DNA of 64,000 nucleotides from Tsuneonella dongtanensis (GCF_001698205.1 NZ_CP016591.1:682001-746000), one strand, 5' to 3'. Positions 13,767 to 17,093 are shown, numbered from the stretch's first letter. Notes: generated by a model not told the origin, from the letters alone. A program made the numbers and translations.

Positions 13767-14016
13767 CGGATCATCCTCTCTCAACGCCCGCTTGGCGCGG
13801 GCACACGGGATGAAAGGACGGGCAGACCCAAGGTTTCCGCCCATGCGCCGGAGCGGCAGCCGCTTGCGCCAAGCGGTTGGAATAAGGTCAGAAACTTGAT
13901 GGTTGTTAGGGTTCTTCGAGGGTCTCAGGCGTGGTTCTAGGGCTCTTCGATCCGTATCTTGCGCTGCCTGCAGGATCCATTTTCCTACACCGCGCTTCTT
14001 TTGCTCGATTGCGGAA

Positions 14017-14397
14017 ATGAAAAATTGGTCAAGAACCGGCAAATGGAAGCGTGCAAAGATTGCGCGATTGATGGACCGTGACGGCCCCGACTGCTGGCTG
14101 TGTTCCCGCCCCATGCCCGATCCGCCCAAGCGCGCGAACAAGCGCCGCTCGCTCGAACACCTGACCCCACGCAGCCTCGGCGGCGACGACAGCGAGGCGA
14201 ACTTGGTGGTGTGCCATCAGCACTGCAACGCACACCTCAAGGATCGTCCCCGCGAGCAGAAGGAGAAGATGCGGACGAAGTGGCATCGGGCTTTCAAAAA
14301 AGGCCCACCCCTAACCCCTCCCGCAGGCGGGAGGGGGACGTGGTTGCGCCGATTTTTCCTCTCCCGCTTGCGGGAGGGGCCGGGGGTGGGCAAGTAA
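14017..14397 (+). CDS. HNH endonuclease, C-terminus encoded by a palindromic repeat
   Basis: A 126-residue HNH-type nuclease. Zinc ligands appear as C26-x2-C29 (CWLC) and C66-x3-C70 (CHQHC); the catalytic set is the EHLTP histidine (H48), the asparagine of ANLVV (N62) and H73. The family's usual end is near the KWHRAFKK helix; residues after about 96 (KGPPLTPP...REGPGVGK) are translated from the repeat at 14303-14391 and are probably not functional. ATG 14017 gives a basic N-terminus (KNWSRTGKWKRAK); the frame is open further upstream without similarity. It stands immediately before the DUF559 nuclease gene. Confidence 0.85.
   Translation: MKNWSRTGKWKRAKIARLMDRDGPDCWLCSRPMPDPPKRANKRRSLEHLTPRSLGGDDSEANLVVCHQHCNAHLKDRPREQKEKMRTKWHRAFKKGPPLTPPAGGRGTWLRRFFLSRLREGPGVGK
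14303..14391. repeat. Palindromic REP-like doublet
   Basis: Two units in inverted orientation. The first (14303-14337) contains a self-complementary CCCCTCCCGC/GCGGGAGGGG hairpin with a 2-nt loop; the second (about 14358-14391) contains the mirrored CTCCCGC/GCGGGAG hairpin and ends GGGGGTGGGC, complementary to the GCCCACCCC that opens the first. About 20 bp, including TTTTT, separate them. This is the architecture of interspersed REP/BIME elements of alphaproteobacteria. It overlaps the 3' end of the HNH gene and ends 12 bp before the DUF559 start. Confidence 0.85.
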
Positions 14398-14403
14398 CCC
14401 GTT

Positions 14404-14826
14404 GTGCCCGAATGGAAACCCCGCAACACCCTGCGAGCCCGGACCCTGCGCCGCCAGGCCACCCCGGCGGAACGCGAGCTCTGGCGCCACCTGTCACGCG
14501 GCCAGCTCGACGCGAAGTTCAGCCGCCAGATGCCGGTCGGCCCGTTCTTCGCCGACTTTCTCTACCGCGAACTGAAACTGGTGATCGAACTCGACGGCGA
14601 GAGCCACGACCTTGCACCCGACGCCGACGCCAGCCGCGACCTTGCACCCGACGCCGACGCCAGCCGCGACCGCTGGATGGCGCGCGCGGGCTACACCGTG
14701 CTGCGCATCGCTAATGCGGAGGTGCATGACAATCCCGAAGGCGTGGCCACCGAGATCCGCGACGAGATCGAGCGATACTGCGCTGCTTCGGGAGTACGAT
14801 GGATCAATCTTGTATTGCGTTTGTAG
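14404..14826 (+). CDS. DUF559 (Vsr-like PD-(D/E)xK) endonuclease-domain protein
   Basis: A 140-residue protein of the DUF559 family, related to very-short-patch-repair nucleases. It opens with the family helix RARTLRRQATPAERELWRHL, then FFADFLYRELKLVIELDGESH, which supplies the acidic residues D51, E62 and D64 of the nuclease core, and closes with GYTVLRIANAEV and a DNPEGV helix. An exact 10-residue duplication (DLAPDADASR twice, residues 69-88) sits straight after the active-site strand. Start is GTG 14404, right after the palindromic repeat. Function is unproven in this family. Confidence 0.85.
   Translation: MPEWKPRNTLRARTLRRQATPAERELWRHLSRGQLDAKFSRQMPVGPFFADFLYRELKLVIELDGESHDLAPDADASRDLAPDADASRDRWMARAGYTVLRIANAEVHDNPEGVATEIRDEIERYCAASGVRWINLVLRL
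14608..14667 (+). repeat. Exact 30-bp tandem duplication inside the DUF559 gene
   Basis: Copies at 14608-14637 and 14638-14667 are identical base for base and keep the frame. The identity suggests a recent slippage or duplication event. Confidence 0.97.
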
Positions 14827-14845
14827 CTGACGCATTGGGCCAGGA

Positions 14846-15733
14846 ATGGTTATTGATCTTCCGCAAAATTTCCAAATGAACGCGATCAACCGTTTCACCA
14901 CTCAGGTGGTGCGCCGGGATGGCAAACCCTCGTCTGGAGAAATGACGTTTAATTTCGGAAAACTAGGCTTTATTGACGGAAGCGGATATACGGTACTAAG
15001 TAACACAATCGGTTGGTTGCTAAGTTATGGAGTGAAAGTTCAATTCATAAATTACAATCGCCCAGAAAATCATGCAATTCAATACCTTGATGATTGCGGA
15101 TTTTTTGAGAAGTATATCAATCGTAAAATACGCAGTGCGGCCTCTCGTCGTGGTACCACGCTTCCGTGTACTCATGTTGAGCAGGAATATGGCTTCACAT
15201 GGGTAGAGCATCAACTAAGCCCATGGTTATGCCGCACCCTATGGGTCAGGCCTAGTCAAATCTCAAGTATTAAGGCTTGCGTTAAAGAGGTTATAAATAA
15301 TATTGCTGACCATTCTACTGTGGATACCGGATTTGTGCACGCTCAGCACTATCCCAACGCCCACAATCTAAAGATAACCATGTCAGACTTTGGGGCTGGC
15401 ATACCTAGTACGATACGGGCGCGGTACGGCGCGATGTCGGACTTCGAGGCTATCGAGGAGGCCGTCAAGGATGGCGTCACGGCCAAAAGTAGGCCAAACA
15501 ATATGGGTGCGGGTCTGAGTTATCTTGTTGACACCGTGATTGCGAACCGAGGCTCGGTGCACATTCAGTCCTTGTCTGGAAATTTGGCGTGCTTATGTGA
15601 TACCAGAGGTAGGCTTAAGCAGCAGCGCGGGAGAGCCACCGGCGTGTATCCAGGTACTCTCATTGAAATTGGGCTGGATACGAGGCTCTTCGTCGGCGAT
15701 GACGATGACGAACGGATTGATTTTGAATGGTGA
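14846..15733 (+). CDS. STAS-like/GHKL ATPase fusion protein, putative switch kinase
   Basis: A 295-residue protein of two parts. Residues about 31-90 look like a STAS/anti-anti-sigma-type fold (FNFGKLGFIDGSGYTVLSN, then YLDDCGFFEKY). Residues 140-245 form a GHKL ATP-binding domain with an N-box (E148, N151/N152, D155, H156 in EVINNIADHS), a G1 box DFGAG (181-185) and a G2 box GAGL (221-224). No phosphoacceptor His domain or membrane segment is seen, so it resembles SpoIIAB/RsbW-type switch kinases more than sensor kinases. ATG 14846 is the first in-frame start; ATG 14876 is an alternative. The DNA is A+T-rich (lines at 14941 and 15061 hold 23 and 20 G+C in 60, against 40 in 60 at 16501), which points to transfer. 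It overlaps the next gene by 7 bp. Confidence 0.85.
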   Translation: MVIDLPQNFQMNAINRFTTQVVRRDGKPSSGEMTFNFGKLGFIDGSGYTVLSNTIGWLLSYGVKVQFINYNRPENHAIQYLDDCGFFEKYINRKIRSAASRRGTTLPCTHVEQEYGFTWVEHQLSPWLCRTLWVRPSQISSIKACVKEVINNIADHSTVDTGFVHAQHYPNAHNLKITMSDFGAGIPSTIRARYGAMSDFEAIEEAVKDGVTAKSRPNNMGAGLSYLVDTVIANRGSVHIQSLSGNLACLCDTRGRLKQQRGRATGVYPGTLIEIGLDTRLFVGDDDDERIDFEW

Positions 15734-16023
15734 TCCATGTTCTCGACATCGTAAAGGCATGCAACACGGCGGCACAAGGCGCTGAGGTTGCGTCTGCGGT
15801 GCGTCGAGCATTAGAGAACGGCCAAAGCGTTACGTTATCGTTCGAAGGCGTAAACGAAACTCCATCTTCATTTATAAACTCGTCGATTGTTGATCTAGTC
15901 TATAACGATCCTCCGGAGGCTCTGCGTGAGCGCCTGTTGATCTCCAATATCACAGATCAAATCGCTACAATGATTACGCGTTGCCTTCGCAATGGCCGCA
16001 ATGCTTCAACCGCTGTAGCGTAG
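15727..16023 (+). CDS. STAS-like (DUF4325) protein, partner of the ATPase
   Basis: A 98-residue single-domain protein. VTLSFEGVNETPSSFINSSIVDLVY matches the DUF4325 STAS-like pattern of a beta strand, then a serine-rich turn before the helix, where SpoIIAA-type proteins carry the phosphorylated serine. It starts inside the ATPase gene (ATGGTGA, 7-bp overlap), so the two products are probably made together and interact. A partner-switch role is inference from the pair. No sigma or anti-sigma target is adjacent. The stop is 2 bp from the convergent nrdB stop, and composition remains A+T-richer than nrdB. Confidence 0.8.
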   Translation: MVIHVLDIVKACNTAAQGAEVASAVRRALENGQSVTLSFEGVNETPSSFINSSIVDLVYNDPPEALRERLLISNITDQIATMITRCLRNGRNASTAVA

Positions 16024-16025
16024 CT

Positions 16026-17093
16026 TTATTCCGCCGCCACGCTCCCGCCAGTCGCATCCCCGAACATATCCGGCTCGCCGGCGTCCTCGACGTCGTTCGC
16101 GCCTTCGCCGCGCTTGGCTTTCTGGCGCTGGTCGAAGCTCGACCAGACGTCGTTCCAGTTGCCGCGGGTGGCCGCCTTCGAATATTCGGTGGCGCGCGTC
16201 TCGAAGAAGTTGGCGTGCTCCACGCCGTTCAGCAGCGGGGCGAGCCAGGGGAGGGGGTGGTCCTCGACCATGTAGATCGGCTGGAAGCCGAGCTGGCCCA
16301 GTCGCCAGTCGGCGATGTAGCGGATGTAGCGCTTGATCTCCTTGGCGCTCATGCCCGGGACCGGCCCCTGCTCGAACGCGAGGTCGATGAAGGCGTCTTC
16401 CAGCCGCACCGTCTTCTGGCAGGCGTCGATGATGTCTTCCTTCACCGCCTTGGTCAGGCAGCCGCGTTCCTGCACGAAGGCGTGGAACAGGCGGGTGATG
16501 CCTTCGCAGTGGAGGCTCTCGTCGCGGACCGACCAGCTGACGATCTGGCCCATGCCCTTCATCTTGTTGAAGCGCGGGAAGTTCATCAGCATCGCGAAGC
16601 TGGCGAAGAGCTGCAGTCCCTCGGTGAAGCCGCCGAACATGGCGAGCGTGCGGGCGATGTCCTCGTCGGTATCGACGCCGAATTCCTGCAGGTAATCGTG
16701 CTTGGCCTTCATCTCCTCGTACTCGAGGAACATGCCGTACTCGCTCTCGGGCATCCCGATCGTGTCGAGCAGGTGGCTGTAGGCGGCGATGTGGACCGTT
16801 TCCATGTTGCTGAACGCGGTCAGCATCATCTTGATCTCGGTCGGCTTGAACACGCGGCCGTACTTGTCGTGGTAGCAATCCTGCACCTCGACGTCGGCCT
16901 GCGTGAAGAAGCGGAATATCTGCGTGAGCAGGTTGCGCTCGTGGTCGGACAGCTTCTGCGCCCAGTCGCGGCAGTCCTCGCCCAGCGGCACTTCCTCGGG
17001 CAGCCAGTGGACCTGCTGCTGGCGCTTCCAGAACTCGTAGGCCCACGGATATTCGAAGGGCTTGTAGGTCTTGCGGGCTTCGAGCAGCGACAT
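16026..17093 (-). CDS. nrdB: Ribonucleoside-diphosphate reductase, beta subunit
   Basis: Small subunit of class I ribonucleotide reductase, carrying the iron-oxygen centre and tyrosyl radical. The 355-residue protein shows the metal-ligand helices: DCYHDKYGRVFKPTEIKMM-region, MFLEYEEMKAK and DESLHCEGITRLFHAF, where the Glu/His ligands lie, and a C-terminal tail (EPDMFGDATGGSVAAE) that docks to the alpha subunit. ATG 17093 has AAGAGGA about 9 nt upstream. It follows nrdA after a 331-bp gap with its own possible hairpin, so it may have its own promoter. Its 3' end abuts the transferred STAS gene with no terminator between. Confidence 0.96.
   Translation of the reverse strand: MSLLEARKTYKPFEYPWAYEFWKRQQQVHWLPEEVPLGEDCRDWAQKLSDHERNLLTQIFRFFTQADVEVQDCYHDKYGRVFKPTEIKMMLTAFSNMETVHIAAYSHLLDTIGMPESEYGMFLEYEEMKAKHDYLQEFGVDTDEDIARTLAMFGGFTEGLQLFASFAMLMNFPRFNKMKGMGQIVSWSVRDESLHCEGITRLFHAFVQERGCLTKAVKEDIIDACQKTVRLEDAFIDLAFEQGPVPGMSAKEIKRYIRYIADWRLGQLGFQPIYMVEDHPLPWLAPLLNGVEHANFFETRATEYSKAATRGNWNDVWSSFDQRQKAKRGEGANDVEDAGEPDMFGDATGGSVAAE

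Follow-up and report, generated by a model that had tools for sequence, protein, structure and literature searches.

A two-gene module in Tsuneonella dongtanensis is VapK-VapS-like in its core, yet judged by its sequence it is neither a VapKSC nor a CapKS system. We consider it fairly probable that this pair is a mobile kinase/substrate switch of the CapK-CapS/VapK-VapS type that has been stripped of its built-in output and acts in trans, likely in defense. The module lies on the plus strand of the 64-kb stretch of DNA that we analyzed (the window; positions are counted from its first nucleotide). The first gene, K (14846 to 15733), encodes a 295-aa protein composed of a STAS-like domain (about residues 1 to 100), a GHKL kinase domain (about residues 103 to 282), and a tail. 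The second, S (15727 to 16023), encodes a stand-alone STAS protein of 98 aa assigned to DUF4325 (PF14213, Pfam E = 2.6e-12). The two genes overlap by 7 bp (15727 to 15733, plus strand), exactly as a preliminary description of this locus had reported; in the overlap, ATGGTGA, K ends in E-W-stop and S begins with M-V. An overlap of the same length is found in most homologous pairs. An open run of 295 codons occurred in none of 2,000 base shuffles of the region. No promoter-like match was found in the window upstream of K on the plus strand, so the window copy may be weakly expressed.

Predicted kinase K and predicted substrate S

The domain assignments made earlier, STAS plus GHKL for K and a DUF4325 STAS protein for S, agree with Pfam, conserved motifs, and structural models. 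In Pfam the GHKL domain of K falls below threshold (HATPase_c, E = 7e-4). The model of K (pLDDT 91.4, pTM 0.90) places this domain best on SpoIIAB (1l0o/1til; Z 13.8 over 134 residues, rmsd 2.6); SpoIIAB chains occupy ranks 1 to 5 with Z scores of 13.2 to 13.8, and CheA scores 10.3. The ATP-binding motifs are intact, and residues of the N, G1, and G2 boxes are invariant among 41 homologues (E148, N151, N152, H156, D181, G183, G185, N219, G221, and G223). In PADLOC 2023 the only match of K, to DrmA (E = 5.6e-9), covers 103 residues of a 1,750-position profile in its ATPase stretch; we took it as a generic GHKL match and rejected the assignment.

Both the model and the alignment of K start directly with the STAS domain, and neither contains an HTH at the N terminus. 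From the alignment, the STAS domain of K is degenerate and, unlike S, does not conserve a serine that could accept phosphate (position 46: S in 9 of 41 proteins, A in 11 of 41); it is therefore more likely to be regulatory than a substrate. In the same domain, F42 is aromatic (F, Y, or W) in 37 of 41 homologues and is a candidate equivalent of the aromatic residue that stacks on single-stranded DNA (ssDNA) in published relatives, W68 in CapK and F54 in VapK (PMC13373217).

The K tail codons (15689 to 15730, plus strand; FVGDDDDERIDFEW) specify an acidic-aromatic C terminus whose conservation and predicted disorder are indicated by alignment and model pLDDT. An aromatic residue occupies at least one of the last four positions in each of the 41 aligned K proteins, 40 of 41 have a tryptophan within the last seven, and the median net charge over the last 14 residues is about -6. 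Residues 288 to 295 are predicted to be disordered (pLDDT < 50). In overlapping pairs the codon for the terminal tryptophan overlaps the start codon of S (NTGG). Gene overlap does not appear from the alignment to be the sole cause of this residue, because eight of nine nonoverlapping relatives also end in F or W (L011, L034, L035, L036, L013, L107, L121, and L123), the compared rows being homologous and non-independent; in the ninth, L015, K ends in WFI. The words “acidic” and “C-terminal tail” are absent from the main text of the study describing CapKS and VapKSC (PMC13373217), and the conserved, disordered tail appears to be unreported. Its nearest analogy is the acidic tip of SSB (MDFDDDIPF): besides contacting partner proteins, this tip sits transiently in the DNA-binding domain of SSB itself as long as that domain is not filled by ssDNA (PMC7145534).

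The profile of S (A5; 38 rows comprising the window clade and a few outliers) matches the solved structure of Escherichia VapS (PDB 9z7o) with E = 2.7e-13, and the SSFxN motif of S aligns with SPFFN of VapS. The predicted phospho-acceptor, Ser47, aligns with residue 66 of the 9z7o chain, which corresponds to VapS Ser48 on our inferred tag length of 18 residues. Position 47 is S or T in 38 of 38 proteins and position 48 is S in 38 of 38. The model of S (pLDDT 89.2) consists of the STAS domain only: Ser47 starts a helix (residues 47 to 60), as the phospho-serine of SpoIIAA does, and the last helix ends at residue 96 of 98, with neither a DNA-binding domain nor a C-terminal wHTH in the 98-aa model. 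Structural comparisons by VIA-align were middling (Z 6.5 for RsbV, 6.2 for SpoIIAA, and about 6 for RsbS), and Foldseek returned no significant match for S (best E = 0.024). Sequence profiles are more informative for S than Foldseek.

Relatives in temperate phages and bacterial chromosomes

Single-sequence scans recovered one relative in genome contigs and none in viral contigs, and an alignment-based scan of IMG/VR recovered 68 viral loci. Relatives detected by tblastn in streptococcal temperate phages share 31% identity with K over 93% of its length. In the streptococcal phages whose region we examined, K is followed by S with a 7-bp overlap, and the pair sits between the lysin gene and the attachment end. 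K matches phrog_3364 (E = 1.3e-38) and S matches phrog_9989 (E = 1.2e-9), both annotated as of unknown function. The published VapK and CapK proteins were not found in our plasmid, phage, and E. coli searches, and PADLOC 2023 contains no model for the pair.

We compared 47 nonredundant loci, most of them viral; wherever the contig end does not truncate the locus, K is followed by S with hardly an exception. The preliminary description had raised the case of homologous pairs tied to a fixed, unrelated partner; in these loci no third gene was fixed and none recurred downstream, the only other widely recurrent neighbor being lysin, most often upstream. The K and S distances are correlated (0.70 in 39 loci, whereas none of 2,000 permutations exceeded 0.40), which together with the existence of K-S fusions supports, at the sequence level, a co-inherited functional unit.

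A tree of 60 K-type proteins places the window K in a 45-member clade (100/100) drawn mostly from viral contigs and distinct from the VapK proteins, which form a clade of their own (100/98), and from naturally fused K-S proteins, which form another (100/97). Its immediate subclade (100/99) contains a prophage copy beside a Mom-like gene (G037), two viral contigs, a Caulobacterales MAG, and a copy directly 3′ of a complete Type I restriction-modification (R-M) operon, hsdM-hsdS-hsdR (G968; L112 1457 to 9100). Another bacterial copy, that of G601, adjoins a phage tape-measure gene. By PIN profile, a PIN gene lies directly downstream of K and S in 7 of 7 VapK-clade loci, and none was detected in the stand-alone-clade loci scanned or near the window pair; L035 and L015 contain a PIN gene by the same profile.

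Several relatives depart from the two-gene arrangement. Temperate phages also carry VapKSC-type operons of three genes, a PIN gene among them, next to the integrase gene at L015 5584 to 7376 (Streptococcus phage Javan172) and L121 4001 to 5813. Apparent fusions of STAS-GHKL with a C-terminal DUF4325-like STAS domain are present at L012 1914 to 3158, L038 366 to 1565, L110 1414 to 2634, and L111 1423 to 2682, which form their own clade, and at L125 1162 to 2331 and L129 1093 to 2406. Six STAS-GHKL proteins of about 330 to 365 aa (L030, L037, L039, L124, L127, and L130) do not have the acidic-aromatic tail, and no DUF4325 partner was seen near them. On Bradyrhizobium plasmid pBsp2S1a, S in a decayed pair (L010 6061 to 8415) is separated from a K fragment by an IS5-family transposase gene.

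The abundance of copies in temperate phages raises the possibility that the module regulates its carrier, with K sensing damage, S tuning the lysogeny/lysis decision, and chromosomal copies representing stranded remnants. Some pairs do adjoin repressor and integrase genes, including a VapK-type copy and that of Francisella phage KIRK, for which a table of temperate phages gives a 293-aa protein together with a DUF4325 protein, flanked by repressor and integrase. However, most copies lie beyond lysin at the contig edge, outside the control region: in 28 of 35 nonredundant viral contigs no more than 5 kb separates the pair from an end, versus about 28% expected under uniform placement. Intact non-prophage copies also occupy variable or defense loci, as in the window and G968, and S carries no DNA-binding domain. 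We regard self-regulation of the prophage as rather unlikely on these grounds.

Comparison with known kinase/STAS switches

The nearest kin of the pair are CapK/CapS and VapKSC (Chambers et al., EMBO J 2026, PMC13373217). When ssDNA activates CapK, an HTH-STAS-GHKL protein, this kinase phosphorylates a conserved serine of CapS, a STAS-wHTH protein, and immune operons are derepressed (PMC13373217). In VapKSC, VapS inhibits the PIN toxin VapC, and mutation of VapS S48, VapK F54, or the VapC catalytic residue abolishes about 2 logs of protection against phage Bas42 (PMC13373217). CapKS and VapKSC together portray the kinase/STAS core as pluggable into different immune outputs (PMC13373217). We found no paper on a stand-alone K/S pair in the literature searched.

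The window pair shares with VapKSC a STAS-GHKL kinase without an HTH and, behind it, a small STAS protein that has an aligned S/T and is homologous in sequence to the solved VapS. It differs in having no gene for the PIN toxin VapC, in an S protein of 98 aa that does not extend into the C-terminal VapC-inhibiting region (VapS residues 94 to 116), in the placement of K in a separate clade, and in the overlap of the K and S genes. Membership in VapKSC was rejected on the absence of PIN. With CapK/CapS the pair shares the kinase/STAS gene order, the expected serine target, and a link to defense loci including R-M; the copy behind the Type I operon in G968 recalls the published linkage between R-M and capKS. 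In contrast to CapK/CapS, the window K has no HTH and S no wHTH, and nrdB on the other strand, rather than an immune operon, lies downstream. No output gene was found in the window or at related stand-alone loci.

On the strength of these relatives, K is putatively an ssDNA-responsive kinase, and the pair is probably a DNA-damage-sensing switch. In the reading that we favor, an output-free switch acting in trans, ssDNA arising from DNA damage or phage replication would activate K, which would in turn phosphorylate Ser47 of S or its invariant neighbor, Ser48. Phosphorylated S could then release, or bind, a partner encoded away from the pair. The locations of the module suggest that this partner would be a host or phage protein reached in trans and that the net effect would be a stress or anti-phage response protecting the lysogen or host. 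By analogy with the SSB tip, we propose that the tail of K may occupy its own ssDNA groove and hold the kinase off until ssDNA displaces it. An anti-phage or stress role, which the preliminary description had entertained, is likely given the CapKS/VapKSC kinship and the defense-type locations, both of which bear on it indirectly.

A more specific version of this scheme is possible but tentative. The phage-borne pairs may constitute a third class of ssDNA-sensing kinase/STAS systems, each a complete two-gene defense or superinfection-exclusion module in which S acts on a conserved host or phage target in trans and an SSB-like acidic-aromatic tail holds K off until ssDNA displaces it.

The description of the pair as a SpoIIAB/SpoIIAA-type core is borne out by the fit of the GHKL domain to SpoIIAB (Z 13.8) and the homology of S to solved VapS. 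As in SpoIIAB/SpoIIAA and RsbW/RsbV, K has the GHKL serine-kinase fold and S a STAS fold with a serine starting a helix. An ordinary partner switch, in which K would be the anti-sigma factor of a host sigma factor and S the anti-anti-sigma factor, would account for these folds. Unlike the known pairs, K adds an N-terminal STAS domain and the conserved acidic-aromatic tail. The earlier observation that the module contains no sigma factor, phosphatase, or effector held for the surroundings of the pair in the window, and neither a sigma factor nor a phosphatase recurs among the neighbors of relatives, although ones encoded elsewhere could act in trans. Among solved structures, S is closest in sequence to the antitoxin VapS rather than to RsbV or SpoIIAA, and a single module would need to find sigma factors from Streptococcus to the alphaproteobacteria. 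Control of a sigma factor seems improbable to us.

A role in counterdefense, in which the phage pair cross-phosphorylates the S proteins of host CapKS or VapKSC or soaks up the ssDNA signal, we find quite doubtful. It would explain why phages carry homologues of a host immune regulator that have no output of their own, but the pair is also found in bacterial chromosomes at defense-type sites, and S is strictly kept, although a decoy kinase could do without it.

Taken as a switch acting in trans, the pair belongs to a branch of the CapKS/VapKSC core that is widespread, carried mostly by phages, and without visible output; its members occur in Streptococcus phages and in the prophages and chromosomes of alphaproteobacteria, some of them at defense-type loci. 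The branch raises the question of what a switch that lacks an attached effector targets. It also gives phrog_3364 and phrog_9989 a functional hypothesis with named residues, and, if our proposal holds, the tail of K would be a specific and easily testable regulatory element.

The acquired segment, its nuclease neighbors, and the nrdB spot

The K/S DNA is alien to its host, and its composition and distribution support the recent acquisition that the preliminary description had read from its A+T richness. The two 60-bp counts given there (23 and 20 G+C) are reproduced as 0.38 and 0.33. The pair as a whole is 48.5% G+C against 66.4%, and, ranked within the window, all other stretches of the same length (1.18 kb) have at least 62.7% G+C. 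Likewise, GC3 is 0.49 for K and 0.50 for S, compared with 0.78 to 0.80 for two nuclease genes upstream and 0.90 to 0.93 for argB and nrdB. K was found in none of ten other genomes of the genus searched. The low-G+C segment extends approximately from 14760 to 16025, between the DUF559 gene and nrdB (16026 to 17093, minus strand), the next gene after S. Its left edge is the end of homology to the congener G008 (L018), near 14759, with homology restarting at nrdB.

The nucleases are a small HNH gene (14017 to 14397, plus strand; Pfam HNH_4, E = 5.5e-6) and a PD-(D/E)XK-like DUF559 gene (14404 to 14826, plus strand; Pfam E = 1.4e-29). All four genes that had been called in the locus are present as ORFs in their places. 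The TTG start at 13903 proposed for the HNH gene is probably too early, because homology with the congener starts near an ATG at 14017, which we favor. The idea of a single accessory patch stands for K and S. It fails for the nucleases: with low G+C and GC3 confined to K and S, the alien tract is the pair alone, and both nuclease genes are host-like in composition and lie outside the module. The end of G008 homology near 14759 sets the 3′ end of the window DUF559 gene at the insertion edge.

That the HNH and/or DUF559 proteins are the output of the pair in a nuclease-effector defense island, as their adjacency and the PIN nuclease output of the related VapKSC might suggest, is highly improbable, since G008 keeps HNH and DUF559 beside nrdB without K or S, the nucleases differ from the pair in composition, and no nuclease recurs next to the 47 nonredundant homologous pairs, the HNH gene near the Caulobacterales copy being of a different kind. 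We rejected the two nucleases as effectors on synteny and composition, and with them the nuclease part of the defense role suggested earlier.

Anchoring on nrdB in ten congeners, we observed that the gap 3′ of this conserved gene (window 16023 to 16026; L017 to L026) is an accessory spot whose contents vary from species to species in the genus. In G002 it is occupied by RmrA/RmrT (RosmerTA; PADLOC, 9e-141 and 6e-41) and in G010 by a SIR2 protein (PADLOC Aga_SIR2, 2e-33), with a weaker SIR2-like protein in the spot of G005. G004 carries DUF3644/PDC-S19 there, G003 an HNH protein that has a DpnI_C-like HTH, and G001 a beta-lactamase-family gene. The spots of G007 and G008 contain unknown genes (in G008 together with HNH and DUF559), and no recognized accessory gene was seen in those of G006 and G009. 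“Defense spot” is a descriptive label for this gap rather than a tested enrichment, and a defense-type location is seen in few chromosomal copies of the pair.

Two further features mark the nuclease genes. The DUF559 gene contains a 30-bp tandem duplication (14608 to 14667, encoding DLAPDADASR twice) that the G008 copy does not have. A G+C-rich, REP-like inverted-repeat element spans 14304 to 14395 in the HNH/DUF559 interval; G008 carries it at L018 5699 to 5787 and 6142 to 6254, with the extra copy after DUF559.
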